From: Henriciella barbarensis
Lineage (GTDB): Bacteria > Pseudomonadota > Alphaproteobacteria > Caulobacterales > Hyphomonadaceae
Length of the DNA stretch: 64,000 nucleotides
Direction: 5' to 3'
Assembly: GCF_003576345.1 (NCBI RefSeq)
Contig: NZ_QWGB01000003.1
Coordinates: forward strand, 1-64,000
Shown here: positions 3,313 through 18,257 of the stretch, piece after piece
Numbering within the stretch: the stretch's first letter is position 1
How the letters are laid out: the number at the start of each line of letters is the position of its first letter
Made by a program: the position numbers and the translations under genes
The notes under the pieces: model-generated
Databases searched by the model: none
Told to the model about the DNA's origin: nothing
What the model saw: the letters and a program-made list of their open reading frames with translations, nothing else

Positions 3313-4125
3313 GGTATTGTCAGAAGAACTTCGCTTGAACGGCGGTTGCCGCCCGCCCTATTCTTTGCGACATGACCAAATCTCCATTCCGCTACTTCAA
3401 GACGTCGCCGGTAATCATACGCCTCGCCGTAATGATGAATGTCCGCTTCCCGCTATCGCTCCGCAATGTAGAAGACCTCCTACATGAACGCGGGATCGAG
3501 GTAAGCCATGAGACGGTGCGATATTGGTGGAACCGATTTGGGCCGCTGTTCGCAGGCGAGATTCGAATGCGCAGATCTCAGCAACTTCGCCAAATCGCAC
3601 AATGGCGATGGCACCTCGACGAAGTCTATGTGAAGATTAATGGCAAGACGCATTACCTATGGCGCGCCGTCACGAAGGTGAAGTGCTCGAGAGCTACGTT
3701 ACGAACACTCGAGATAAATCAGCGGCTTTGCGTTTCCTAAAGAAAGCCAAGAAGCGGTACGGCACGCCGCATGAAGTGGTGACTGACCGACTTCGTTCTT
3801 ATGGTGCAGCCATGAAAGAAATCGGCAACATCGACCGTCAGGAGGTCGGTCGACATCTCAACAATCGGGCTGAGAATAGTCACCTGCCCTTCCGGCGACG
3901 GGAGCGAGCGATGTCGCGATTTCGAAGGATGGGCAATCTACAAAAGTTCGCCTCAACCCACGCCTCGTTTCACAATCACTTCAATTTGGATCGCCATCGC
4001 AACTCAAGATCCCGCTTCAAGCTGAACCGTGACGCCGCCCTCCTCGAATGGCGCCTGCTTCTGGCGACCTAACCGCGTTTGCTTCCCCGAAAACAGAGAC
4101 GAGTTTGCATTAGTCTGACAACACC
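3313..4125 (+). mobile_element. IS6-family insertion sequence (transposase broken)
   Basis: The ends are inverted copies: GGTATTGTCAGA at 3313-3324 against TCTGACAACACC at 4114-4125 (11 of 12 match). The roughly 813 bp length and single DDE transposase fit the IS6 family. No direct repeat is seen in the flanks (AAACAGAA against GCCAGGCT), which suggests a rearranged insertion or one resolved from a cointegrate. The same end sequence closes the remnant at 1440, in the same orientation. Confidence 0.85.
3372..4072 (+). pseudogene. IS6-family transposase, frameshifted
   Basis: The N-terminal part (from ATG 3372) holds the IS6 helix-turn-helix region and the first catalytic Asp in WHLDEVYVKINGKTHYLWRAV. 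After WRAV the reading moves to the -1 frame (HEGEVLESYVT...), which carries the second Asp (VVTDRLRSYGAAMKEIG), the Glu (NNRAENSHLPF) and the C-terminus. The break is near 3672, where intact relatives read roughly WRAVDHEGEV. A one-base (or four-base) deletion explains it. No slippery run is apparent, so this is probably a true pseudogene rather than programmed shifting. Confidence 0.85.
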
Positions 4126-4408: not shown

Positions 4409-4493
4409 GCCCAGGTGGCGGAATTGGTAGACGCGCACGGTTCAGGTCCGTGTGTCTCACGACGTGGAGGTTCGAGTCCTCTCCTGGGCACCA
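4409..4493 (+). tRNA. tRNA-Leu (anticodon CAG)
   Basis: The cloverleaf folds completely: acceptor GCCCAGG/CCTGGGC, D-stem GCG/CGC, anticodon stem CACGG/CCGTG around the loop TTCAGGT (anticodon CAG), a long type-II variable arm, T-stem GGAGG/CCTCT with loop TTCGAGT, discriminator A and encoded CCA. The 3' end doubles as the attachment site of the downstream island and stays intact. Confidence 0.96.
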
Positions 4494-4499
4494 TCGGAA
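4475..4499 (+). repeat. Attachment site next to the integrase (3' end of tRNA-Leu)
   Basis: The 25 bases from the T-arm of tRNA-Leu through CCATCGGAA recur at 17987-18010, with one G missing from the GGG run. Integration into tRNA 3' ends by tyrosine recombinases commonly leaves such direct repeats. The integrase gene begins 83 bp further on. Confidence 0.85.
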
Positions 4500-4581: not shown

Positions 4582-6033
4582 ATGCGTGTAGTCTTGAAAC
4601 ACCTGAAGCTGCTTCCCAACGGCAAATATCAATATCGAAGGATCTGGCCTCAGGACGTGCGTGACGCACTGCCCGACCTGCCACGCGAACTTAAAAAGTC
4701 GTTCCTCGCCCCGGGCGGACAGGATGAAGCTATCCTGACAGCTGTTACACTGAACCGTGAGTTTGATCGTACGCTAAGATCGATCCGCGAGAATGGCGGC
4801 GAAGCGCCTGCGTGGGAAACTGCTGCTAAAGTTCGTAAGTGGCACGCTGAGAATAGTGTGGAGCTCGCGTCAGTGTTGCTCGAGCGGCTCGGCTTCGACA
4901 ATCACGGCAACCCAGTCACAATCGAAGAAACAGCTGGTAGTATGGAGATCGATCGCATTCTGGAAGCAGCTGAAAAGCGATACGGTTCGTCGCTTGAGGG
5001 TGGCCCTGCCAAGCTAAGCTTGGAGGATCGTATGAAGATCGAAGCGATCAACAAAGGCTCTGTGTCCGCTACGGCAATTACAGTTCAGGAGGCCTTCGAG
5101 CTCTACACTCAGAAGAAGAAAGCTGGTCGTGTAGACAGACAGGCACAGAACGCCCTTCGGCAGTTCATGGAGTTTCATGGCAATATGTCCGTGTCGGACA
5201 TCCGCAGCCCCTTGGTCATGGATTGGCTCGACCATCTGGTGGACAATCGCAAACAAGGCTACGAGACCGTCAAGAAACGCCTTGGCGCCATGAAGGCGAT
5301 GGTCAACTTCGCAAAGAAGCGTGGCGCTTTCGTGGGCGACAATCCGTTCGTGGGTCATCAGCCACCGGACCATGCCAAAGCAACTCTTGATCGGTTGCCT
5401 TTTCACGAGGTCCATCTCGCGGCGCTTGATAAGTACCTGGCGCGGGGTTCAGTGCTTGAGGAAACAGCGTGGGTTGTTCAGCTCCTGAAGTACACTGGCT
5501 GTAGACCAAGTGAGATCGGAGGTCTCATGGCAGAGGACCTGTCATTAGATGGCGACCTCCCCTTTGCTCTGGTTCGATGGAGCGAGGATAGACGTCTGAA
5601 GACTAACGATAGCGAACGTCGAGTGCCATTGCTCGCCGGAGCTCTTGAGGCGGCGCGTGCGGCCAAAGCTCGAACACCTGAGGGCTGGCTCTTCCCTTCG
5701 TTGGCTCCATCTTCGGGGGACCTGAATGACAACAACAGGATATCTGCGCGCATAAATGCGGTCATCCGGAATGCGGGTATTTTCGATACGCCACAGTTAG
5801 TCTGTTATAGCTTCAGACACACAATGGCCGCTGCGTTAGATCAAACTCCCGATATCGCTCACGTTGTCAGAGAGCGGGTCTTGGGGCGACGACGCGCTCA
5901 GTATGGTGCGAAGGAGCAGCCATTGGTGGAGAGCCATAACGCGCTGAGTGGTGCGTTGGCGTATCTCGGCAAGTCAGACGCGGTTTTGTACAAGCCTGAG
6001 ATGTTGAAGGTTTCGAGATCTGATAAGGGATAA
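4582..6033 (+). CDS. Tyrosine recombinase / phage-type integrase
   Basis: This 483-residue integrase has an N-terminal arm-binding part (1-160), a SAM-like core-binding domain (about 165-250) and a catalytic domain (270-460). Visible catalytic positions are Arg308 in TGCRPSEIGG, Lys340 in RRLKTNDSERR, Arg412 in CYSFRHTMA and the likely nucleophile Tyr441 in RAQYGAK. Two usual histidines are replaced: Tyr409 in box II and Arg in VLGRR. Both substitutions occur in divergent members of the superfamily, but the activity should be tested. It lies 83 bp after tRNA-Leu in the same direction, and presumably integrates the island at that tRNA. Confidence 0.9.
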   Translation: MRVVLKHLKLLPNGKYQYRRIWPQDVRDALPDLPRELKKSFLAPGGQDEAILTAVTLNREFDRTLRSIRENGGEAPAWETAAKVRKWHAENSVELASVLLERLGFDNHGNPVTIEETAGSMEIDRILEAAEKRYGSSLEGGPAKLSLEDRMKIEAINKGSVSATAITVQEAFELYTQKKKAGRVDRQAQNALRQFMEFHGNMSVSDIRSPLVMDWLDHLVDNRKQGYETVKKRLGAMKAMVNFAKKRGAFVGDNPFVGHQPPDHAKATLDRLPFHEVHLAALDKYLARGSVLEETAWVVQLLKYTGCRPSEIGGLMAEDLSLDGDLPFALVRWSEDRRLKTNDSERRVPLLAGALEAARAAKARTPEGWLFPSLAPSSGDLNDNNRISARINAVIRNAGIFDTPQLVCYSFRHTMAAALDQTPDIAHVVRERVLGRRRAQYGAKEQPLVESHNALSGALAYLGKSDAVLYKPEMLKVSRSDKG

Positions 6034-6912
6034 ATCGGCTGCAAGCGGAACAGATATAAACGCAGCAATTACAAAGCCTTATCAAAACCCCGCGTATTAG
6101 GGATAAAGAAGCTACTCTGGGCGCTCTCAGAGTAGCTCTTGAGACATCAACCTGCCTTCATCCTTAGCATTATTCCTATGGGTAACTGATAGGGTTCATT
6201 GCTCCACAGCGGCTTAGGGAACATTGGAAGTGCCTTGAGGCCCTCCAAGGGTTTGACCCTGATTGTTCTGTAAGCGCTCACCGGGCATTCGAGTAATCCT
6301 CTCGACTACTCTTTGCTCGACTGGCGCTGTCTAGCGCTTGGTGCAGGCTCCCTGTGGAGCCGACATTCATTCTCAATCCAAGTTTGCACACTGCTCAGAA
6401 GGATCTCTGTAAGCGCGCTGGCAGCAGCGTCCCCCTTCAGGGCATTGCGATCAGTCAGACCAAGTCTCACGTGCTTGGGTGCCGTTCTGATTGCGACGTA
6501 AAGCGATGTTCGAAGATCTCCCATGAAGAAGAAGCACGTGAACGAACTGGGAACAAGTTCCGCTAGTAGCTCTGACCTAGAAAGCTGTGGATGCCAGGGC
6601 AAATCGAAATCTGGCACAAAATTCTCAGGGGTATTAATCGCAGCAACTCGCCTCAGTTTACCCCCTCGGGGGGGGCTGCTTGCCCTGTAGCCAATGCAAT
6701 CTCCGGCGGCAGACTTTCCTCGCCTTCACGTCCTCGAGTGAAAGCCAGGCAATCAAAAGTTGCCGTATATGGAGGAGTCCTGAGTAGGGCATCGTATTCG
6801 GAGATCGCGCCAAGCAATGTGATTGACGAGTTTTACGATCCGTCGGATGGATCGGACCGCGACGCTGCGTATAGATGAGCTCTGTAGTAAATAGAACAGA
6901 GGGAACGCCGAC
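6034..6912. other. Gene-poor stretch of the island with hairpin
   Basis: Between the integrase and the secreted protein no strong gene is seen. A perfect 10-bp stem with an 8-base loop lies at 6110-6137 (AGCTACTCTG / CAGAGTAGCT), 75 bp after the integrase stop. It may end integrase transcription, although no T-run follows. Two weak frames (6306-6617 minus and 6591-6878 plus) overlap here; neither resembles a known protein. This is also where an excisionase or origin could hide. Confidence 0.5.
6306..6617 (-). CDS. Hypothetical protein (weak)
   Basis: A 103-codon frame begins with GTG at 6617 and has plausible protein composition (MPDFDLPWHPQLSRSELLAE..., a hydrophobic FTCFFFMG segment and a charged C-terminus). 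The ribosome-binding site is poor (TGAG) and no family is recognised. It would be transcribed against the integrase. It could be a small island gene or chance. Confidence 0.3.
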   Translation of the reverse strand: MPDFDLPWHPQLSRSELLAELVPSSFTCFFFMGDLRTSLYVAIRTAPKHVRLGLTDRNALKGDAAASALTEILLSSVQTWIENECRLHREPAPSARQRQSSKE

Positions 6913-7437
6913 ATGAAGAGCTCTAGTGTGCTTGTAGGCGCAATCGCATTCTTCTCAACCCAGTCGCTCGCGGTTGCAGAACAGGTCTTCTACTGCATCC
7001 CCGACGAAGTTTCTTACTTGGGGCTTGTGGATGGAGAGTTTGCATCGGATGCAAGGCGGACCAGCGAGCTTGAGCGCCGTTTCACAGTTGCGTTCGTCGA
7101 AAGCTCGGATGAACCAAGCCTTGTTGCCGCCAAATTGAGCACGCGCAGCGACGAATTGCCTTGCTATCTAGATATGACTGAAAGCGGCGATCTCCGCCGA
7201 CAGCTCGCCGAGAAGGGCAATCCACTTGAGGTGTCTGATCACATAGACTGCCAGACCTTGGGTGCCGGTTTCGCCTTCAACACAGAGAACAATACGTTCA
7301 TCTATCGCGGCGAGCGATTGGGCTTGGTTACGCACCCCTACACCGCAACGTCGTCAACCTTCACGAAGGATCAGTGGGAGAACTCAATCGGCTACACAGG
7401 GTCTTTCATGGCGGTAGGCAGCTGCGAGACATTCTAG
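6913..7437 (+). CDS. Secreted hypothetical protein with four cysteines
   Basis: This 174-residue protein begins with a Sec signal peptide: a positively charged start, a hydrophobic core VLVGAIAFFSTQSLA and a likely cleavage near AVA-EQ. The mature part has four cysteines (FYCIP, LPCYL, DCQT, GSCETF), suggesting two disulfides in the periplasm. GAGGGAA precedes the ATG. I recognise no family. It stands alone between the integrase and the restriction genes and may be ordinary island cargo; nothing links it to restriction. Confidence 0.6.
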   Translation: MKSSSVLVGAIAFFSTQSLAVAEQVFYCIPDEVSYLGLVDGEFASDARRTSELERRFTVAFVESSDEPSLVAAKLSTRSDELPCYLDMTESGDLRRQLAEKGNPLEVSDHIDCQTLGAGFAFNTENNTFIYRGERLGLVTHPYTATSSTFTKDQWENSIGYTGSFMAVGSCETF

Positions 7438-7601: not shown

Positions 7602-10040
7602 ATGGCAATCAAGAAGACAGACATCTACCGCTCCCTCTGGGACAGCTGTGACCAGCTCCGGGGCGGCATGGATGCCTCCCTCTACAAGGACTACATCCTA
7701 ACCCTCCTCTTCGTGAAATATGTCTCTGACCGGGCAGGCCAGGCGGACTCGCTTATCCACGTCCCTGAGGGCTGCACCTTCGACGACATGCGCAAGCTGC
7801 GTGGTCGCAAGAGCATTGGCGAAGAGATCGACAAGATCATCGCCCAGATCGCCGAAGCAAATGACCTGAGCGGCGTCATCGATCGCGCCTTCTTCAATGA
7901 TACTGAAAAGTTCGGCAAGGGCGAGAAGATGGTGCGCACACTTACCGCGCTTATCAACATCTTCAGCCGCCAAGAGCTCGACTTTAGCCGCAACCGCGCG
8001 GGCGGCGATGACATCCTGGGCGACGCCTACGAATACCTCATGCGGAACTTTGCGACGGAGTCCGGCAAGAGCAAAGGCCAGTTCTACACGCCTGCAGAGG
8101 TCTCCCGCGTAGTAGCTTCCGTCGCAGGAGTAGAGCGGGCAGAACGCGTCAGCCAATCCGTCTATGATCCAACCTGTGGCTCTGGTTCACTCCTGCTGAA
8201 AGCAGCAGATCAGGCTCCTGTGTCGCTAACGGTGTTCGGTCAGGAGAAGGACATCACGACGCGCGGCCTCGCCGTTATGAACATGATCCTCCACGGCAAG
8301 GAGACAGCAGACATCCGCCAGGGGGACACGCTCTCGGATCCGGAATTCACCAATACGGACGGCAGCCTGCAGACCTTTGACTTTGTCGTCGCCAATCCGC
8401 CTTTCTCGGACAAGGCCTGGGGCGACGGCATGAATGCAGAGGCCGATCGCTTCGATCGCTTCGCCGATGGTGTGCCGCCCGCCAAGAATGGTGACTTCGC
8501 TTATCTCCTGCATATCCTCGCCTCGATGAAGGCGACAGGCTCCGGCGCGGTCATCCTGCCTCATGGCGTGCTCTTCAGGGGCAACAAGGAGGCTGAGCTT
8601 CGCGAAAAGGTGCTGAAGCGCGGCTACATCAAGGCCATCATCGGCCTGCCCGCCAACCTTTTCTACGGCACAGGCATCCCGGCGTCCGTCGTCGTTCTGG
8701 ACAAGTCGGCAGCCACAGCCGAGCGCCCTATCTTCATGATTGATGCCTCGCGGGGGTTCATCAAGGACGGCAACAAGAACCGCCTGCGGGAACGTGACAT
8801 CCACAAGATTACCGACGCCTTCGCGCGCCAGGCCGAGATTCCCAGCTATTCGCGGCTCGTCCCTTTCGACGAGATCCAGCGCAACGACTTCAATCTCAAC
8901 CTCCCGCGTTACATCGATGGCTCGGAGCCGGAAGACCTTCAGGACATCGAAGCCCACCTCAAGGGCGGCGTGCCGAACCGCGACATTGACCTGTTGCAGG
9001 ACTTCTGGACCGTCATGCCTGGTATACGCGTGACGCTCTTCGGGCCGAACGAGAGGCCGGGCTACTCGGACCCTCTGGTCGAGCCGGAAGACGTCCGCGC
9101 GGCGATCCGCAATCACGCAGACTTTGTGGCCTATCGCGACCGGGTTCGCGCCATCCTTCAGGGCTGGATCGACGCCAATCGGCTACTTATGCAGGCCTTT
9201 GGTCAAGGTGCGAAGCCCTCAGAGTTCATCCACACGATCGCCGAGGACATGCTGGCCCGCTTCGCCGAAGCTCCGCTCATTGATCAGTATGAAGCCTATC
9301 AGCGGCTGATGTCCTACTGGCAGGAGACCATGCAGGATGACGCCTTCATCATCGCCGATGCGGGCTGGGAAGCGGCGAAGGAGCTTCGGGAGGCGCGCAA
9401 GGAAGTCGACGGCAACAAAACGAAGTGGTTGGAAGAGGCCGACCTTACCGTCAACAAGGTGCGCCTGGTCGCGGATGTCATCCCGCCAACCTTGATCGTC
9501 GCCCGCTTCTTTCCGGAATTGCATAAGGCCTTGGACGAGGCTCAGATGAAGGCCGATGCGATTGCGGCGGAGATCGACGAGCTCGTGGAAGAACATGGCG
9601 GCGACGAGGGGCTGCTCTCAGATGCGCTTTCGGATGCCGGTAAGCTCACAAAAGGCACACTCAAGGACCGCATTGGATCGGGCAAAGCTGACGCCGGAGA
9701 ATTGGCAATGCTCAAGCAGGCTAAGAAACTGATGGACGCTGATACGGCAGCGAAGAAGGCGGTGAAAGTGGCCGATGAGGCTCTGACCGAGGCCACTTTA
9801 AAGAAATATCCTAAGCTGACAGAGGATGAGATCCGCGCGCTGGTTATGGAAGACAAGTGGTTGTCAGATATTGCCAAACTCGTTGAGGCCGAAATCGAGG
9901 CTCGAACAAAGCAGCTAACGGCCAGGGTGCGAGTGTTGACGGAACGGTATGGGCAAACGTTGCCGGAGTTAGCTGAAAGACTGTCGAAATTCACATGTAA
10001 GGTGGAGAAGCACCTCGCATCTATGGGCTTTGCACAATGA
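7602..10040 (+). CDS. hsdM: Type I restriction-modification DNA methyltransferase subunit
   Basis: This 812-residue HsdM has an HsdM_N helical domain (about 5-140) and an N6-adenine methyltransferase domain. The AdoMet motif YDPTCGSGSLLLK lies near residue 187 and the catalytic NPPF near 264 (VVANPPFSD). It modifies host DNA with HsdS and is needed for restriction with HsdR. Beyond the usual roughly 500-residue body is a long charged, helical C-terminal part (about 490-812), characteristic of the longer HsdM subgroup. The start ATG is at 7602, and the stop overlaps the hsdS start (ATGA), so the two are translationally coupled. Confidence 0.95.
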   Translation: MAIKKTDIYRSLWDSCDQLRGGMDASLYKDYILTLLFVKYVSDRAGQADSLIHVPEGCTFDDMRKLRGRKSIGEEIDKIIAQIAEANDLSGVIDRAFFNDTEKFGKGEKMVRTLTALINIFSRQELDFSRNRAGGDDILGDAYEYLMRNFATESGKSKGQFYTPAEVSRVVASVAGVERAERVSQSVYDPTCGSGSLLLKAADQAPVSLTVFGQEKDITTRGLAVMNMILHGKETADIRQGDTLSDPEFTNTDGSLQTFDFVVANPPFSDKAWGDGMNAEADRFDRFADGVPPAKNGDFAYLLHILASMKATGSGAVILPHGVLFRGNKEAELREKVLKRGYIKAIIGLPANLFYGTGIPASVVVLDKSAATAERPIFMIDASRGFIKDGNKNRLRERDIHKITDAFARQAEIPSYSRLVPFDEIQRNDFNLNLPRYIDGSEPEDLQDIEAHLKGGVPNRDIDLLQDFWTVMPGIRVTLFGPNERPGYSDPLVEPEDVRAAIRNHADFVAYRDRVRAILQGWIDANRLLMQAFGQGAKPSEFIHTIAEDMLARFAEAPLIDQYEAYQRLMSYWQETMQDDAFIIADAGWEAAKELREARKEVDGNKTKWLEEADLTVNKVRLVADVIPPTLIVARFFPELHKALDEAQMKADAIAAEIDELVEEHGGDEGLLSDALSDAGKLTKGTLKDRIGSGKADAGELAMLKQAKKLMDADTAAKKAVKVADEALTEATLKKYPKLTEDEIRALVMEDKWLSDIAKLVEAEIEARTKQLTARVRVLTERYGQTLPELAERLSKFTCKVEKHLASMGFAQ

Positions 10041-11269
10041 ACGATGCGGTTAATAGCCCAAGTTTTGTACGAGCTGGAGAGGGCAGCGAACCTTGGGTCG
10101 AGGTCTCGCTCGGCGACCTTGCAGATCTAAAGAATGGGTATGCCTTTGCTAGCTCTACCTACAATGTCCTGGGCCAATATCGAATTGTGACTATCGCGAA
10201 CGTTCAGCAGGGGCGAATGGACTTGAGGCAATGCAGTCGTATCGTTTCTGCTCCGAAAGATTTGCAAAGTCATCAGCTCCTTTCCCATGGGGACATACTG
10301 ATCTCCATGACAGGAAACGTTGGTCGCGTTTGTCTTGTCAACGAGGACAATTGCTTACTAAATCAGAGAGTCGGAAAGCTTTCTCCGAGACGCGTCTCCC
10401 GGAGTTTCCTATTTCAACTTCTTCTGCAGCCGACCTTCGTTGAAGCCATGGCGGGAAAAGCGACCGGAGGTGCGCAGGGGAACCTCGGAAAGGACGATAT
10501 ATTAGATCATCCGTTCTATGTCCCGACCTGCCGGTCGGAGCAGGAAGCCATCGCCGAGGTGCTCTCGGATGCGGATGCGCTGATCGAGGGGCTGGATCGG
10601 CTGATCGCCAAGAAGCGGCTCATCAAGCAGGGCGCGATGCAGGACCTCCTGACCGCCAAGCGCCGCCTCCCGGGGTTCTCGGGAGAGTGGGGAGAGCGTC
10701 GGCTTAGAACACTATGCAAGGTTAGCCGCGGAGCCTCACCCCGACCAATCGCCAGTGCCAGATGGTTTGATAATTCCTCGTCAACCGGATGGGTTCGGAT
10801 CTCAGATCTTCCTCAATCCGGGCGTTTCCTCACACAAACAACTCAGCGTCTCTCTCAAGACGGTATTGACCGGAGCAGGCGCGTTCCGATCGGCAGTCTG
10901 ATAATGAGCATCGCGGCGACCGTCGGAAAACCTGCGATCACTACTATCGACACGTGCATACACGACGGATTTGTCGTGTTCTCGGATCTCAAGGTCGATC
11001 AGCTGTTTCTTTATTATCTTCTCAAAACAATGGAACCTGAGTGGTCTCAGCACGGCCAAACAGGCTCACAAATGAATATCAACACGGCGATCATTGAAGC
11101 AGCAGAGGTCTTCGTACCCGAAACCATCGAGGAACAAGCAGCTATTTCCTGTGTCTTCGCTGATATGGACACCGAAATCCAAGCCCTCGAAACTCGCCTC
11201 GACAAGGCGCGGCAGGTGAAGGAAGGCATGATGCAGAACCTTCTGACCGGACGGATCAGGCTGGTCTGA
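10037..11269 (+). CDS. hsdS: Type I restriction-modification specificity subunit
   Basis: This 410-residue HsdS has the usual two half-subunits. TRD1 (about 20-165) is followed by a central conserved helix (AIAEVLSDADALIEGLDRL...), and TRD2 (about 215-355) by a similar C-terminal helix (AISCVFADMDTEIQALETRL...). These helix repeats set the spacing of the two half-sites. The TRD regions are lower in GC than hsdM and hsdR, normal for exchangeable specificity modules. It overlaps hsdM by 4 bp and precedes hsdR by 42 bp. The recognition sequence cannot be read from sequence. Confidence 0.94.
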   Translation: MNDAVNSPSFVRAGEGSEPWVEVSLGDLADLKNGYAFASSTYNVLGQYRIVTIANVQQGRMDLRQCSRIVSAPKDLQSHQLLSHGDILISMTGNVGRVCLVNEDNCLLNQRVGKLSPRRVSRSFLFQLLLQPTFVEAMAGKATGGAQGNLGKDDILDHPFYVPTCRSEQEAIAEVLSDADALIEGLDRLIAKKRLIKQGAMQDLLTAKRRLPGFSGEWGERRLRTLCKVSRGASPRPIASARWFDNSSSTGWVRISDLPQSGRFLTQTTQRLSQDGIDRSRRVPIGSLIMSIAATVGKPAITTIDTCIHDGFVVFSDLKVDQLFLYYLLKTMEPEWSQHGQTGSQMNINTAIIEAAEVFVPETIEEQAAISCVFADMDTEIQALETRLDKARQVKEGMMQNLLTGRIRLV

Positions 11270-11311: not shown

Positions 11312-14300
11312 ATGAGCACAATCGGCGAAGCAGAGCGCAAGGCGCAAAACCGCACCATAGATCTTCTCTGCGGCGGAAAATCTGGCTCAGTGGGCGGTCT
11401 CGGCTGGCGCTATCTCGGCGACTGGCAGAAGCAAGACGGCAACGCCAACATCGAAGAAGGTCTGCTTCGTCCCTGGCTTCTGTCTCGAGGCTATGCGCGG
11501 GATCTTGTCGCTCAGGCAATCAACCTCCTGAAGCGTGAGGCGCGCCTTGAGGGCGACAAGCTCTATGAGGCCAACAAAGCCTTCTACGAAGCCCTGCGCT
11601 ACGGCATTTCGGTCTCGCCGGGACCGGGTGAAGCCCCAGTGACCGTGACGTTCGTCGATTGGTCAAATCCAGCCGTAAACGATCTCGGCGTCGCGGAGGA
11701 AGTCTCAATCAACGGCAAGTCCTCCAAGGCCTACAACAAGCGCCCGGATCTCGTCCTCTATGTGAACGGCATCGCGTTTGGCGTCATCGAACTCAAGAAG
11801 TCGACCCAGAGCGTCGGCAAGGGCATTCGCCAGACGCTAGACAATCAGCGCGCGGAGTTCATTCGTCACTTCTTCACGACCGTTCAGCTGACCCTCGCAG
11901 GCAATGACAGCGAGGGACTGCGCTACGGGGCGATCGACACGCCGCAATCCTACTGGCTCGCCTGGAAGGAAGAAAGCGAGATCGCCGAACGCCTGGACCG
12001 CGATGTCACACAGATGCTGGCGCCCGCTCGCTTCCTGGAGCTTATCCACGACTTCACGCTCTTCGATGCGGGCACCAAGAAGATCGCACGGCCCAACCAA
12101 TACTTCGCCGTGAAGGCTGCCCAGGCGCGCATAAGGGAGCGCTCTAGCGGTATCATCTGGCAGACCCAGGGGTCAGGCAAGAGCCTCATCATGGTCATGC
12201 TGGCGCGCTGGATCCGGGAAGCCTATCCGGATGGGCGGGTCCTCGTCATCACGGACCGCAAGGAGCTTGACCGCCAAATCGTGGAAGACGTCTTCGGGGG
12301 CACGGGTGACAAGGTCCGACAAGCCAAGAGCGGCGCCGATCTCATGGCGGCCCTCGCCAACCCCGCAGACCGTGTTGTGAGCTCCCTTGTTCACAAGTTC
12401 GGCAAGAGTGAGGAAGAGGAGATGCAGGCGCTCGTCTCCAAGATCCAGAGTTCAGGCATTGGCGTGCCGCAAGGCGAATTTTTCGTCTTCGTCGACGAAT
12501 GCCACAGGACGCAATCGGGCAAGCTTGCAAAGGCCATGCGGTCCATCCTACCGGATGCGATGTTTATCGGCTTCACAGGCACGCCGCTCCTGCGCTCAGA
12601 CAAGCAGACCTCGCTTGAAGTGTTTGGCCCCTATATCGGCAAGCCCTATCGCTTTGACCAGGCTGTGGAAGATGAGGTGGTTCTAGACCTGCGCTATGAG
12701 GCTCGCGACATCGATCAACGCATCAGCGCGCCGGGCAAAATTGACGAATGGTTCGAGGCGAAGACCAAGGGGCTTACGCCCGTCGCAAAGGCTTCCTTGC
12801 GCCAGCGCTGGGGAACGCTGCAGCGCGTGCTCTCAAGTCGTGACCGGCTGGACCAGATCGCAAGCGACATCATCTTCGATATGGAGACCAAGTCCCGCCT
12901 TGAGTCCGGGCGCGGCAACGCAATGCTAGTGGCCGGTTCGATCCCTGAGGCCTGCAAGTTCCTGGAGATTTTCAAGAAGTCCGGCTCGATGCTGGCGAAC
13001 AAGTGCGCCATCGTGACTTCCTACAAGCGCACGGCAGGCGAACTGACAGGCGAGGAAACAGGACTCGGTGAGACTGAGCGCCAATACGTCTACCGGGTCT
13101 ACGATGATCTTCTCGGCGACGAAGACGAAGAAGAGTATGAGAAGGAAGCGCTCCGTAAGTTCCGCAGGGAGCCGGGACAGATGAAGCTTCTGATTGTGGT
13201 GAGCCGCTTGCTTACCGGGTTTGATGCGCCCACCGCGACCTATATCTACATCGACAAGCAGATGCGCGATCACGGCCTCTTCCAGGCCATCTGCCGAGTG
13301 AACCGTCTCGATACGGACGACAAACAGTATGGCTACATCGTCGACTACAAGGACCTCTTCAAGAGCATCGAAAACGCGGTCGAGGATTACACATCGGAAG
13401 CGTTCGACGGCTTTGACGCGGAAGATGTCGAGGGCCTGATCTCTGATCGTGCAGAGCGTGCGGATGAGGACCTCGAAGTCGCGCGGGAAGCCTGGCTTGC
13501 TCTGATGCAACGCGTGGCGCCGCCCGCTGGAGACACCGAGATCTACTCGTACTTCTCGACACTCGACGGTGTTGAAGGCGACGTGTCTCAGGACGACAAA
13601 GCCCGGCGCCGAGAAACGCTCTACAATCTTGCCGGGCGCTATGCGCGTGCCTATGGCGCAGTGGCTGAAGACCCGGATGCGTCAGAACTTCCGGGCACCT
13701 TTCTCGAAACGTGCCGTCAGGAGGTTGAACGGGCTATCGCCATTCGGGACGCTGTCCGCCTGCATAGTGGGGACGCCGTCGACATGAAGCTCTATGAGCC
13801 CGCCATGCGGCATCTCATCGACAACTACATCAAGGCAGACGCTCCAGAGGTTATCTCTCACCTTGACGATGTCAGCCTCATTGATCTGGTCGAGGCCAAG
13901 GGCTCTGACCTGGATAAGGGCCTGCCGGATGAGCTTATACGAAATCGCGAAAACTCAGCCGAAGCGATAGCCAATAATGTCCGCCGTCTGATCATCGAGG
14001 AAATGCCGGTCAATCCGCGTTTCTATGAGAACATGTCGGAGCTCTTGACAGATCTCGTACAACGGCGGCGCGAAGATGCCATTGAATATGCAGAGTACCT
14101 CAAGGAAATCGCCGAGCTTGTCCGACAGGCGCGCGCAGGGCATGGCCGCTCCTATCCTTCCTCCATGGATACGCCGGGGCGAAAGGCGCTCTATGATAAT
14201 CTCGGCAGTGATGAAGAGTTGGCCAGACGGGCAGACGAGGCGATCAGGTCAAGTGCAGAAGCTGGTTGGCGCGACCATATGATGAAGCAGCGCCGCATCC

Positions 14301-14383
14301 TGCAAAGTCTCAAGCCGGTACTTGGTGATGCCGCAGATCCTGAGAACATCCTTGAGATTGCGAGAGCCAATGGCGAGTACTGA
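11312..14383 (+). CDS. hsdR: Type I restriction endonuclease / translocase subunit
   Basis: This 1023-residue protein cuts unmodified DNA after ATP-driven translocation. The N-terminal nuclease carries the PD-(D/E)xK residues: Asp in RPDLVLYV (about 146) and the ELKK motif at about 160. The SF2 helicase motor follows, with Walker A QGSGKS near 286, DECH at about 394 and FTGTP near 421, and later helicase motifs SRLLTGFDAPT and QAICRVNRLD. The C-terminal region is helical and contacts HsdM. All key residues are present, so the system looks active. Confidence 0.95.
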   Translation: MSTIGEAERKAQNRTIDLLCGGKSGSVGGLGWRYLGDWQKQDGNANIEEGLLRPWLLSRGYARDLVAQAINLLKREARLEGDKLYEANKAFYEALRYGISVSPGPGEAPVTVTFVDWSNPAVNDLGVAEEVSINGKSSKAYNKRPDLVLYVNGIAFGVIELKKSTQSVGKGIRQTLDNQRAEFIRHFFTTVQLTLAGNDSEGLRYGAIDTPQSYWLAWKEESEIAERLDRDVTQMLAPARFLELIHDFTLFDAGTKKIARPNQYFAVKAAQARIRERSSGIIWQTQGSGKSLIMVMLARWIREAYPDGRVLVITDRKELDRQIVEDVFGGTGDKVRQAKSGADLMAALANPADRVVSSLVHKFGKSEEEEMQALVSKIQSSGIGVPQGEFFVFVDECHRTQSGKLAKAMRSILPDAMFIGFTGTPLLRSDKQTSLEVFGPYIGKPYRFDQAVEDEVVLDLRYEARDIDQRISAPGKIDEWFEAKTKGLTPVAKASLRQRWGTLQRVLSSRDRLDQIASDIIFDMETKSRLESGRGNAMLVAGSIPEACKFLEIFKKSGSMLANKCAIVTSYKRTAGELTGEETGLGETERQYVYRVYDDLLGDEDEEEYEKEALRKFRREPGQMKLLIVVSRLLTGFDAPTATYIYIDKQMRDHGLFQAICRVNRLDTDDKQYGYIVDYKDLFKSIENAVEDYTSEAFDGFDAEDVEGLISDRAERADEDLEVAREAWLALMQRVAPPAGDTEIYSYFSTLDGVEGDVSQDDKARRRETLYNLAGRYARAYGAVAEDPDASELPGTFLETCRQEVERAIAIRDAVRLHSGDAVDMKLYEPAMRHLIDNYIKADAPEVISHLDDVSLIDLVEAKGSDLDKGLPDELIRNRENSAEAIANNVRRLIIEEMPVNPRFYENMSELLTDLVQRRREDAIEYAEYLKEIAELVRQARAGHGRSYPSSMDTPGRKALYDNLGSDEELARRADEAIRSSAEAGWRDHMMKQRRILQSLKPVLGDAADPENILEIARANGEY

Positions 14384-15119
14384 CGCTAGCACCATCCTTG
14401 AAGTTGCAGGCCTGCCGATCGAAGTCGTCCGCAAGCCCATCAAAAACCTTCACATCGGCGTCTACCCACCGGAAGGTCATGTGAGGGTGGCGGCGCCTGG
14501 CTTCATCGCCGAAGAGGCCATCAGACTCTCCGTCCTGAACCGCCTCCACTGGATCAGGCGTATGCAGCGAGACTTCCGGCAGCAGGCAAGAGAGACGGAA
14601 CGGCACTACGTTTCCGGCGAGACACATTATCTCTTCGGTGCGCCATTGAAACTTCAAGTCAGGCCGAAAGGGCGGCGAGTAAACGTCTCGCAAACCTCGC
14701 CAGATCGATTGACCCTGGAAGTCAGCAACAGCGCAATGCGCGAAGACCGAGCAAGGGCGCTGCAAGTCTTCTACAGAGCGAGGCTGAAAGCTTACGCAGA
14801 GCCGAAACTCGAGGACTGGGCTAAACGCCTGGGCGTTGAAGTACCAAGATTTGGCATTCGCCGAATGAAGACGATGTGGGGGAGCTGCAATCCAGACAAC
14901 GGCCTAGTCTGGCTGAACCTCGAACTTGCTAAGAAGCCGAAGCCCTGCATTGACTATGTGATCCTCCACGAGATGGCGCACTTCCTCTCGCCAACGCATG
15001 ATGAGCGCTTCGTCGCGCTTCTGGATCACCACATGCCAAACTGGCGCCAGCGCCGGGCGGAGCTCAATGCGCTCCCCCTAGCCTTTGAAGACGAGCTCGA
15101 AACCCACAGATCTGCCTGA
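14370..15119 (+). CDS. YgjP/SprT-like zinc metallopeptidase (DUF45)
   Basis: This 249-residue protein (ATG at 14370, overlapping hsdR by 14 bp) belongs to the YgjP-like family. The zinc motif ILHEMAHFLSPTHDERF gives His200, Glu201 and His204 with a downstream acidic residue, and a conserved MKTMWGSCN lies about 45 residues earlier. Such genes are commonly coupled to type I restriction operons. The role is not settled; regulated proteolysis of the restriction subunit is an attractive guess. An upstream in-frame ATG at 14322 lies inside hsdR and is less likely. Confidence 0.85.
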   Translation: MASTDASTILEVAGLPIEVVRKPIKNLHIGVYPPEGHVRVAAPGFIAEEAIRLSVLNRLHWIRRMQRDFRQQARETERHYVSGETHYLFGAPLKLQVRPKGRRVNVSQTSPDRLTLEVSNSAMREDRARALQVFYRARLKAYAEPKLEDWAKRLGVEVPRFGIRRMKTMWGSCNPDNGLVWLNLELAKKPKPCIDYVILHEMAHFLSPTHDERFVALLDHHMPNWRQRRAELNALPLAFEDELETHRSA

Positions 15120-15230: not shown

Positions 15231-15689
15231 TTGAATATCACGAAGCACGAAGCGACTGTCTTCATCGTCTCTACAGCCTCAGGCCCAGATGCGGCGTGGG
15301 CGCTATGCTGGCGCCGCCACCACAGGGAGGACAAAACTAATAGGGCATTGATTAGCGAGGCCACTGGTCCAAGAGCTGCCCTCTTGGCTCTTTGTGATGT
15401 CCTCGAAAAAGTTGAGGACCCAGCGACTCTGCATGTGATTTCCGATCAGGACTACATCGTCAAATCTATCATGAGCGACTTGCCGGTCTGGGTCTCCAAG
15501 GGCTTCAAGACAGCGAAAGGAAAAGAGGTTAGCAATGCCGACCTCTGGCAGAGGATCTATGCGCGGCTTTCTGTGCATACAGTCGACGCTAAACACCCAT
15601 CTGGAGATGCCGAACGAGAGGAGCTGGCGAGGTTGAAGGCAGTCACCAAGAAGCTTCTTCAGGCGCAGAAATTGGCGTCACACACATAG
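15231..15689 (+). CDS. Degenerate RNase H-like protein
   Basis: This 152-residue protein aligns by eye with RNase HI across most of the fold. HVISDQDYIVKSI corresponds to the STDSQYV strand, WVSKGFKTAKGKEVSNADLWQRI to the basic handle and the NADLW motif, and KHPSGDAEREELA to the C-terminal HxG...DELA region. Of the four catalytic carboxylates only the Asp70 equivalent (Asp72) is clearly kept. The Asp134 equivalent is Glu130, and the Asp10 and Glu48 equivalents appear to be Ser and Ala. The start is TTG at 15231 after GGGAGA. It lies 2 bp before the polymerase-like gene, so the two probably work together. Confidence 0.6.
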   Translation: MNITKHEATVFIVSTASGPDAAWALCWRRHHREDKTNRALISEATGPRAALLALCDVLEKVEDPATLHVISDQDYIVKSIMSDLPVWVSKGFKTAKGKEVSNADLWQRIYARLSVHTVDAKHPSGDAEREELARLKAVTKKLLQAQKLASHT

Positions 15690-15691
15690 CG

Positions 15692-16999
15692 ATGACAGAG
15701 GCGAGAAAGCCCTTCAACGACAAGCCGATCAACTGGAACAGAGTACCCGCTTCAGACAGGATGCGCTGCCTGGTGTCCGAGGCGACTAAAGATGCCGACG
15801 ATGCTCGACGTGAGCGGTCCACACAAAGTGGGAAGCAGGCAAGAGCGTTACGGCCCGCCTTTCGAGATCCATTCGAGGCTGCAGTCTCGATGCTGGTCTG
15901 CAATTGCACTCAAGAATACCTGCTTGGCGGCGGATTTGGGGTCTATCTCTCTTTGGACGTCGCGCTTCTCGGGCGCCAGGACTTATTAAAGCCGTTGGCA
16001 GAGAGTTCTGGATTGCCAAAGCGCGTCAAAGAACTGGAATCGAAGGGATGGCTCAACGTCGAATGGGGCCGCCGATCGGCAAGCCAAGGGCGCCGTCAGA
16101 CGGTTCTACGCGCCGGGGAAATGCTGCAGCGGCGGATCGCTCTTTGGAGCGTCGAGGATACTGATGTTGTCGAGCGACTGCTTCGTTCGCCGGTCATTGC
16201 TCAAGGCCGCTCCCATGATGCTGCTTCGTTCAACTCGCCTCGAGTTACTCATGTGCAGGCCGAGATGGTCGACATCAATAAGCGGTTGATTAATGCTGAT
16301 ATCCGATGGACGTCCCCCCTTGATGGCGTCGACCTTTCACAGCGTACGTTACACCGAAGCTTTCGAGACGAAGCTTGCACGCTGGGCGGGCGTATGGCTG
16401 GTGGCTTCTGGTTTCAGATGAGCAAACAAAGCCGCTTTGACTATCTTTGCCTTCAGGGGGAACGCCCTGTAGAGCTCGACTACTCTGGTATTATGCTGCG
16501 CATCGCCTACGCACTTGAAAAGACCGCTCCGCCGCGCTCAGACGTTTATGCCATTCCCGGTTTAGAGGCGGCGCAAAGAGACGACGTGAAGAAGCTCGTC
16601 AATGCCATGATCTGGGACGAGAAGCCGCGCACAAGGCTTCCACGAGGCACAGCGCCTGCCTTCAGACCTATGACCGGACGATTTGCCTCTGCATTGGTCT
16701 TGGACCATCATCAAGCCGTACAGCCCTGGTTGCAGTGTGGTCGAGGCCTAGAGCTTCAACGTTATGAGAGTGACATCATAAGCCGCGCCACAAGGTTAGC
16801 GCTGGAGAGCGGCTTCGTGGCGTTACCAGTTCATGATGCACTCTACGTTCCCTACTCCAAAACGAAGTTGGCAGAGGAGATCATGAGAACAGCCTTCAAA
16901 GACATTTGCGGGGGTGAGGCCATGGTTGTGATGACTGGTGGGGCTGAAGCGGTTCGTGGTGAGATGTCTGCAGGCGGTGATCTCTTCGAGGATGCATAG
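15692..16999 (+). CDS. Compact protein with family-A polymerase motifs
   Basis: This 435-residue protein shows, in the right order, the three signatures of family-A DNA polymerases and single-subunit RNA polymerases. Motif A is VELDYSGIMLRIAYA (Asp263), motif B is QRDDVKKLVNAMIW (Arg296, Lys300, aromatic Trp308) and motif C is LPVHDALYVP (His381, Asp382). The segment before motif A (LGGRMAGGFWFQM) recalls an uncharacterised family in phages and islands. There is no exonuclease domain, and the N-terminal 200 residues look helical and basic. Gene start ATG 15692 follows the RNase H-like stop by 2 bp. A polymerase or primase-like role is inferred only; biochemical activity is unknown. Confidence 0.6.
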   Translation: MTEARKPFNDKPINWNRVPASDRMRCLVSEATKDADDARRERSTQSGKQARALRPAFRDPFEAAVSMLVCNCTQEYLLGGGFGVYLSLDVALLGRQDLLKPLAESSGLPKRVKELESKGWLNVEWGRRSASQGRRQTVLRAGEMLQRRIALWSVEDTDVVERLLRSPVIAQGRSHDAASFNSPRVTHVQAEMVDINKRLINADIRWTSPLDGVDLSQRTLHRSFRDEACTLGGRMAGGFWFQMSKQSRFDYLCLQGERPVELDYSGIMLRIAYALEKTAPPRSDVYAIPGLEAAQRDDVKKLVNAMIWDEKPRTRLPRGTAPAFRPMTGRFASALVLDHHQAVQPWLQCGRGLELQRYESDIISRATRLALESGFVALPVHDALYVPYSKTKLAEEIMRTAFKDICGGEAMVVMTGGAEAVRGEMSAGGDLFEDA

Positions 17000-17063
17000 G
17001 AATAATGTTAAGCTCCTTGGCCTGCCCAACAAAGGCAACAGCGATCTCTTCACGCCTTGCCGC

Positions 17064-17753
17064 TTATTCTGCTCGGCGTCGATACATCCAACCTTGCTCC
17101 CCGTGAGATCCTTGCATCGGCTGGACGCTGTAGGTCTTGGTGTAGAGCCGCATCATGGCAGCCCGCCGTCTGTTGAACGCCAAATCAGCGAAGGACTCAT
17201 CTGGGGAGTTGAAAGCATGTTCATACTCTAGCGGGAACGCTTTGAGGACGATCAACGCGAAGTCAGGACAGAAGGCGCCTACCAATGAGTTCACGGCATC
17301 CGAGCTCCGGCCAGCCAAGGACGAGATGGGTTTCATCCAGACCCGACGGATCTCAACGATATCACCATAGGCGCCGACCTCTTCTCCAATGTCGCCGAAC
17401 TCAGCTTCCAATGCGCAAGCAAGATCGCTTTCCTCCTGCTCATCCATATCCATTACGTAGAGCACTTCTTCGGCGTCCATAAACGCGGGTATACTGTAGC
17501 GCATGAGCTGAACGCCGCCGACTATGTCAGAGCCCAAGAAGATCCAGGCGTCACAGACCTGCCGCCGGATAACCGACATTAACTCGTCCAAAGGAACGTC
17601 ATAGAGCCCAACCGGCTCGGGTGCGCTCAAGCTGTACTCAATGCGAAGATCTGGACCGAGTTGGATCGTCGGAAGACGAGCAGCTCTTGCATGGTCTTCA
17701 GCACGGAAGGGAGACGGCACTTTAGTCTGGCGCCGCAAGCGTTTTGTTGTCAT
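17064..17753 (-). CDS. Uncharacterised island protein
   Basis: This 229-residue protein (ATG 17753) starts with a basic stretch (MTTKRLRRQTKVPSPF) and then an acidic centre (DMDEQEESDLACALEAEFGD). It ends with a conserved-looking segment: LIVLKAFPLEYE, FNRRRAAMMRLYTKTYSV and GEQGWMYRR. I have no family name for it. The frame stays open upstream to 17969, but that extension looks poor. It is convergent with the polymerase-like gene (65 bp between stops) and is the last gene before the island's right end. Confidence 0.6.
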   Translation of the reverse strand: MTTKRLRRQTKVPSPFRAEDHARAARLPTIQLGPDLRIEYSLSAPEPVGLYDVPLDELMSVIRRQVCDAWIFLGSDIVGGVQLMRYSIPAFMDAEEVLYVMDMDEQEESDLACALEAEFGDIGEEVGAYGDIVEIRRVWMKPISSLAGRSSDAVNSLVGAFCPDFALIVLKAFPLEYEHAFNSPDESFADLAFNRRRAAMMRLYTKTYSVQPMQGSHGEQGWMYRRRAE

Positions 17754-18257
17754 GAGACTCTCGGAGTGGAGATGAGGTGGAAAGGAAAGTATCTGCTGTT
17801 TGGCAGGACGGTATGAACGCGCGTTGGAGTCGCTGGTTCCGCGTAACTGAAAGTCGGCATGAGCGGTACAAAGCGGCGGCAAGGTTCGAGTACAAAAAAC
17901 TCCATATTGCGGTTTGTACCCCTGCTTGACCGCTTCTGTAACCTCTTGTATAGAAACGGAATAATTCAATCACTCAGATGCCCTCCAGTCCTCTCCTGGC
18001 ACCATCGGAAAATTTCTAAAATCAATGTATGGCTTTCTCTCCAATACCTTGGGGGCTGGCCAGCACTTGCGGCCGCAGGCCCGTTGGGGCTGCGGTGATC
18101 GGTGGTGCGACGGCTGCTGCCACCTGCGTTCTTTTTGACGGGCTCCGGATGAGGGTCAGGTGTCTAGGGTGAGACTTAAGCAGTGAGCGCGCCTGTATAT
18201 GTGCGGGGCTATGGATGCCTGCCTGTGCAGGTATCTTTGGCACGGAGGCGCATGTCA
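17754..18257. other. Island right end and flanking non-coding DNA
   Basis: This stretch contains the island boundary (17987-18010) and no convincing gene. Past the boundary, 18211-18240 holds a short REP-like palindrome (CCTGC-CTGT-GCAGG within ATGGATGC...GTATC), a layout common to dispersed palindromic repeats. Only one copy is seen in the window. Confidence 0.45.
17987..18010 (+). repeat. Distal attachment site of the island
   Basis: This 24-base copy of the tRNA-Leu 3' end and flank (AGTCCTCTCCTGG..CACCATCGGAA) differs from 4475-4499 only by loss of one G. No tRNA gene precedes it, so it marks the far end of the integrated element. The missing G would break the acceptor stem if it were part of a tRNA. 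Confidence 0.82.

Follow-up and report, generated by a model that had tools for sequence, protein, structure and literature searches.

The closest described systems to the locus reported here are the TV-Pol polymerases of mobile elements (Iyer, Abhiman and Aravind 2008, PMC2579912) and the CcPol-MP primase. The passages on TV-Pols in PMC2579912 describe a thumb, a hairpin whose arginine is absolutely conserved, a palm with two Asp residues, and fingers with an Asp and an RxxxK motif. They place the genes in mobile elements that also encode resolvases or integrases, in regions rich in restriction operons, predict the proteins to be primase-polymerases, and report a D5-like helicase fused or adjacent to them as frequent but not universal. 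Priming was demonstrated for CcPol-MP in the sections of PMC7581432 and PMC10061031 that concern it; according to the former, CcPol retains both Pol I anti-ribonucleotide residues (E710 and F762), and its authors knew in 2020 of no biochemically characterised member other than CcPol. The present analysis concerns a 64,000-nucleotide stretch of Henriciella barbarensis DNA (NZ_QWGB01000003.1, positions 1 to 64,000; the window), in which a gene for an RNase H-like protein directly precedes a gene for a polymerase of the published TV-Pol family (PMC2579912).

The polymerase and the RNase H-like protein

The RNase H-like open reading frame (ORF) began at a TTG codon preceded by GGGAG and encoded 152 residues, and its stop codon was followed by a 2-bp gap and the ATG start of the 435-residue polymerase ORF. 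Both ORFs and their junction were as given in the original prediction, which had been made from the letters alone. The features of the pair are as follows:

15231..15689, + strand: RNase H-fold protein with a degenerate active site (Pfam RNase_H, 3.3e-10)
15692..16999, + strand: TV-Pol-type family-A polymerase, 435 residues (AlphaFold2 (AF2) model, fold search and profile comparison)
16478..16480, + strand: Asp263, motif A metal ligand (96/97 relatives, 1 gap)
16577..16591, + strand: Arg296-x3-Lys300, fingers RxxxK motif (95/97 and 96/97 relatives, respectively)
16835..16837, + strand: Asp382, motif C metal ligand (94/97 relatives, 3 gaps)

The motifs were present in the polymerase order already proposed for this protein, namely A (VELDYSG, Asp263), B (Arg296, Lys300) and C (PVHDALYV, Asp382), and on sequence grounds they are beyond chance. 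Retention of Asp263 and Asp382 in the homologues was as listed above, with gaps in all remaining rows, and the alignment also showed the hairpin arginine R234 in 97/97 and the fingers aspartate D284 in 86/97 relatives. A palm/fingers/thumb fold was predicted confidently (AF2 model and fold search), the palm and fingers having been set beforehand as what to look for. Residues 160-420 aligned to polymerase domains, and the N-terminal part of about 159 residues was examined only within the whole protein. Fold and residues thus agreed with the earlier description of a compact family-A-type polymerase without an exonuclease domain. The protein is a TV-Pol, consisting of a family-A palm/fingers polymerase and an N-terminal accessory part; the label follows from the described features and the setting, the 2008 proteins having been compared through their description only.

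Searches with the polymerase gave no match in Pfam or NCBIfam at E 1, none among PDB sequences at E 10, none in annotated phages and two weak ones in plasmids. Relatives were also encoded by viral contigs and phages. The sole PHROGs match was PHROG 4756, of unknown function, which was matched by all 34 TV-Pol rows scanned; these matches suggest that PHROG 4756 is a TV-Pol family.

The equivalent of E710 was taken, as in Pol I, to lie five residues past the motif-A Asp, and that of F762 four residues past the fingers Lys. The window polymerase had Met268 and Asn304 at these positions. At the E710-equivalent position none of the 96 TV-Pols had Glu (His in 49, Phe in 11, Gly in 7, Met in 6, and others), and DYSxxE was found in 14/14 Pol I sequences. 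Ribonucleotide use by TV-Pols is therefore possible, as judged from these residues.

For the RNase H-like protein we assume the numbering D10, E48, D70 and D134 for the RNase HI catalytic residues; D10, E48, H124 and D134 are named in titles of mutant entries. All five catalytic residues were intact in 28/28 housekeeping RNase HI copies. In the window protein D70 was present, E48 was replaced by Ala, no Asp aligned to D10 or D134, and Glu residues were found near the D134 position. As aligned, the gene has lost most RNase H catalytic residues. The upstream gene had been called RNase H-like, which the Pfam match bears out, and the partner an RNA-strand nuclease, which is unsupported because D10 and D134 have no aligned Asp and Ala replaces E48. 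The first 40 residues of the predicted model were of low confidence. A second RNase HI was encoded elsewhere in the genome in all four genomes checked, and a scan of viral contigs with the RNase H-like protein gave no relatives. Codon-position GC was 0.566/0.434/0.618 for the RNase H-like ORF and 0.612/0.408/0.561 for an antisense ORF in the same stretch, and as a coding test this composition did not discriminate between the two.

RNase H-fold genes beside other TV-Pol genes

A total of 98 TV-Pol ORFs scoring at least 120 bits were surveyed after removal of four duplicate loci. These were sampled by likeness to the window protein and came mostly from Alphaproteobacteria; the RNase H profile used for the tally was partly built from linked copies, and two TV-Pols on one contig (L071 and L072) were counted separately. 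An RNase H-fold ORF was found within 1.5 kb of 8/98 TV-Pols, every one on the same strand (7/97 excluding the window). From 1.5 to 6 kb no such ORF was found in 736,466 bp, and one was present at 8.4 kb. The number expected within 1.5 kb at genome background was 0.08, a rough figure based on 103 matches in 105 genomes with 3.5 Mb assumed per genome; the distance bins served as an internal control.

The linked copies were intact in four of the eight loci, L077 (Roseovarius), L091 (a viral contig), L138 and L150, and degenerate in the window, L071 (Bradyrhizobium yuanmingense), L192 and L129. In L129, D10 and D70 were both replaced by Asn and H124 by Ala; E48 and D134 were retained. L071 and L192 retained D10 and had lost E48, D70 and D134. 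The L071 and L192 copies, the sole degenerate pair that could be compared, were 83% identical with a ratio of nonsynonymous to synonymous substitution rates (dN/dS) of 0.208, which places their degenerate form under purifying selection. On the RNase H tree the linked label required two changes and 0/500 shuffles were as low; because the branches were very long and may attract one another, no conclusion was drawn on a single origin of the linked genes. The window copy grouped with L071 and L192 on very long branches and L129 stood apart, so that the degenerate copies belong to two or more separate lineages.

The block KGFKTAKGKEVSNADLWQR, the RNase H 'handle' region, was kept in the window protein. 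Among the columns that housekeeping copies conserve, the window copy retained 12/22 in the handle and 16/64 in the rest, and L129 19/22 and 41/64. Six of the nine columns invariant among seven aligned RNase H-like copies (L192 left out) were within the handle block (W87, V100, N102, D104, W106 and R108).

Three further observations were made on these genes. A 130-residue ORF overlapping a TV-Pol ORF (L194:7395-7784) had a likeness to RNase H that was confined to the handle and the C-terminal part (hmmsearch E 0.004; hhalign 77%, E 2e-5) and was without the catalytic N-terminal half; it was excluded from the eight, and its inclusion gave 9/104 ORFs within 3 kb, fragments counted. An ORF judged RNase H-like by eye (L072:712-1290) matched nothing useful and was dropped. 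A second TV-Pol in the Henriciella barbarensis genome (G000:C7:260215-261402; L002, L057) was 29% identical to the first and had no significant RNase H match across 16 kb around the gene.

The island at tRNA-Leu(CAG) and other neighbours

The pair sits in an integrative element of about 13.5 kb inserted at tRNA-Leu(CAG), the size following from the attachment repeats (4475-4499 and 17987-18010) and an empty site. The right flank of the island was located in 18/29 genomes of the genus, its own genome included, and in the one genome examined (G008) the left and right flanks joined at an uninterrupted tRNA-Leu(CAG). The remaining features of the element are as follows:

4409..4493, + strand: tRNA-Leu(CAG), integration target (ARAGORN)
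4475..4499, + strand: attL AGTCCTCTCCTGGGCACCATCGGAA, tRNA-Leu 3' end and flank (direct repeat and empty-site comparison)
4582..6033, + strand: tyrosine recombinase/integrase (Pfam PF00589, Phage_integrase, 1.6e-7; phrog_1, 3.1e-30)
7602..10040, + strand: HsdM, type I methyltransferase, cargo (Pfam N6_Mtase, 8.5e-99; PADLOC MTase_I)
10037..11269, + strand: HsdS, type I specificity subunit, cargo (Pfam Methylase_S, 4.7e-30)
11312..14383, + strand: HsdR, type I restriction enzyme, cargo (PADLOC REase_I, 1180.9 bits)
14322..15119, + strand: YgjP-like metallopeptidase (Pfam PF01863, 6.9e-56)
17064..17969, - strand: 301-residue ORF, the final large one in the island (unmatched in Pfam, PHROGs and NCBIfam at E 1 and in PADLOC at E 0.01)
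17987..18010, + strand: attR AGTCCTCTCCTGGCACCATCGGAA, one base shorter than attL (direct repeat and empty-site comparison)

The element therefore contained an integrase, a type I restriction-modification (RM) system, a YgjP-like metallopeptidase, the polymerase/RNase H-like pair and unassigned ORFs, among them 6913-7437, which had no significant family match. No resolvase was recognised in this island. The surroundings of the pair had been described as being without phage or plasmid genes, a statement that does not hold, because the island has a tyrosine integrase and attachment repeats beside tRNA-Leu(CAG). What had been called a restriction island is thus a mobile element that has integrated and that encodes a polymerase of its own.

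Outside the island, to its left, were transposase genes at 27-1214 (rve) and 3372-4072 (IS240-type DDE, split across two overlapping ORFs). An 18-nt inverted repeat (94%) was found at 6163-6180, after the integrase gene, and at 16995-17012, across the polymerase stop codon; it was set aside as a candidate element end, such pairs being also present in 1/20 shuffles.

Within 6 kb of TV-Pols, serine-recombinase-like ORFs were found at 22/41 loci and integrase-like ORFs at 9/41 (clusters named by eye). An RM or BREX gene was present in the fetched stretch at 6/8 RNase H-linked loci (L071 lay outside the scan). The window, L129 and L192 had type I genes, L091 a type III res subunit and L150 a C5 methylase; the L138 stretch had an AAA ATPase and no RM or BREX gene. 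In the Roseovarius locus (L077:1-3452), PglZ and BrxL of BREX were upstream of the TV-Pol/intact RNase H pair. A Cys-rich gene (GCxxP...C.xH...RHGS) of about 230-310 codons adjoined the TV-Pol in 9/41 loci (L053, L054, L055, L056, L067, L069, L071 at 8663-9415, L072 with two ORFs, and L074) and in L192. None of the scanned members matched Pfam above cut-off, and the gene is possibly another TV-Pol partner.

Proposed roles and comparison with known systems

Computation established the fold, the conserved catalytic residues, the island boundaries, the empty site and the recurring RNase H-fold neighbour. We consider it somewhat probable that the TV-Pol primes and extends DNA of the 13.5-kb element, with the RNase H-fold protein as a nucleic-acid-handling partner from the same operon. 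By homology the polymerase would be expected to add nucleotides to a template, and it may prime and extend DNA on an excised or single-stranded form of the element. RNA-containing primers are possible because the examined TV-Pols are without the Pol I Glu and the window protein is also without the Phe, and such primers would explain an RNase H-fold partner. As most of the cutting site is gone, the window protein would bind an RNA-DNA or template-primer duplex without cutting, and would play for the TV-Pol the role that the SSB-like MP subunit plays for CcPol. Its relatives with intact residues would cut the hybrid, for example in primer removal or trimming, so that a hybrid cut in intact pairs may be held in degenerate ones. 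A wider proposal, that TV-Pols have acquired an RNase H-fold subunit again and again and that in some lineages this subunit turned from a nuclease into a non-cutting holder of RNA-DNA hybrid or primer duplex, is tentative and on balance doubtful.

Several results weigh against a dedicated priming partnership. Since 90/98 TV-Pol ORFs were without an RNase H-fold ORF inside 1.5 kb, the partner is optional. In L071 and L192 the Cys-rich gene separates the RNase H-like gene from the polymerase, the polymerases were merely 49% identical despite 83%-identical RNase H-like proteins, and the handle (9/22 against 22/64 for the rest in L071, 8/22 against 20/64 in L192) was not clearly better kept than the remainder. 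The linked TV-Pols were scattered on a quick tree, with 8 changes for 8 rows and a shuffled mean of 7.8; this scatter and the L071/L192 identities would fit loose exchange better than a tight complex. The gate residues His, Phe and Met are bulky and could themselves exclude ribonucleotides. In addition, the scan of the island genes, which covered part of the small ORFs, recognised no replicative helicase of the D5 type.

The RNase H-like gene may instead be a decaying or chance neighbour, formerly the active primer-removing RNase H of the element and now without a role. The loss of at least three of the five catalytic residues in the window as aligned, the missing neighbour at 90/98 TV-Pols, the four intact copies among the eight, the lack of a close relative of the window copy and its antisense-like codon-position GC would all suit such decay. 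However, the reading frame is intact and joined to the polymerase by a 2-bp junction, degenerate copies appear in at least two separate lineages with a dN/dS of 0.21 in the L071/L192 pair, and the proximity is far over background (8 against 0.08 expected), and we regard decay as unlikely. The original prediction had offered a replication module of the island or an uncharacterised defence system, and of these the module is the better option, as inferred from family and context. An anti-phage system parked by the restriction genes, whose polymerase makes or senses nucleic acid in infection, would be in keeping with the adjoining type I RM system and the RM or BREX genes at 6/8 linked loci, but it is improbable: the polymerase, the RNase H-like protein and three relatives matched no PADLOC model at E 0.01, many TV-Pols have recombinase genes within 6 kb (serine type 22/41, integrase-like 9/41), relatives are encoded by viral contigs and phages, and RM cargo is common in islands, both generally and in the relevant passages of PMC2579912. 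A compact DNA-dependent RNA polymerase of the phage T7/mitochondrial type, transcribing the island genes, is very improbable, as the family literature points to replication (PMC2579912, passages on the family) and, among the matches listed, the viral fold matches with a named polymerase function were DNA polymerases.

The linkage of TV-Pol and RNase H genes was not found in the open-licence literature searched and may be in print elsewhere. Word searches did not find 'RNase H' in PMC7581432 or PMC10061031, and in the part of a 2026 survey of bacterial DNA polymerases that was covered (PMC12926913) 'transposon' was absent and the single 'RNase H' was in the reference list. TV-Pols occur in many bacterial islands, and a recurring RNase H-fold neighbour, intact or non-catalytic, gives a testable hint on how their synthesis starts and whether RNA is involved.

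Overall, the window polymerase shares with the TV-Pol family the hairpin arginine, the two-Asp palm, the fingers Asp and RxxxK, the lack of an exonuclease and a mobile-element setting with integrase and restriction genes, and differs in that neither a D5 helicase nor a resolvase was recognised in its island. PHROG 4756, although without an assigned function, matches all 34 TV-Pol rows scanned and thereby gains a suggested one. Compared with bacterial RNase HI, the RNase H-like protein of the window has Ala at E48 and no Asp at D10 or D134, and comes in addition to another RNase HI in the genome. In the sections of PMC7581432 and PMC10061031 on CcPol-MP and the PolA-SSB primases, a family-A polymerase of a mobile element likewise stands beside a small second protein, in islands often carrying RM genes (PMC10061031). 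However, CcPol keeps the Glu710 and Phe762 equivalents (PMC7581432) where the window polymerase has Met268 and Asn304, no D5 helicase was recognised in this island, and the partner is an OB-fold SSB there and an RNase H-fold protein here. If the wider proposal of a recruited RNase H-fold subunit that turned into a non-cutting holder is true, the pair would represent a second architecture of a two-protein family-A primase beside CcPol-MP, able to use ribonucleotides.
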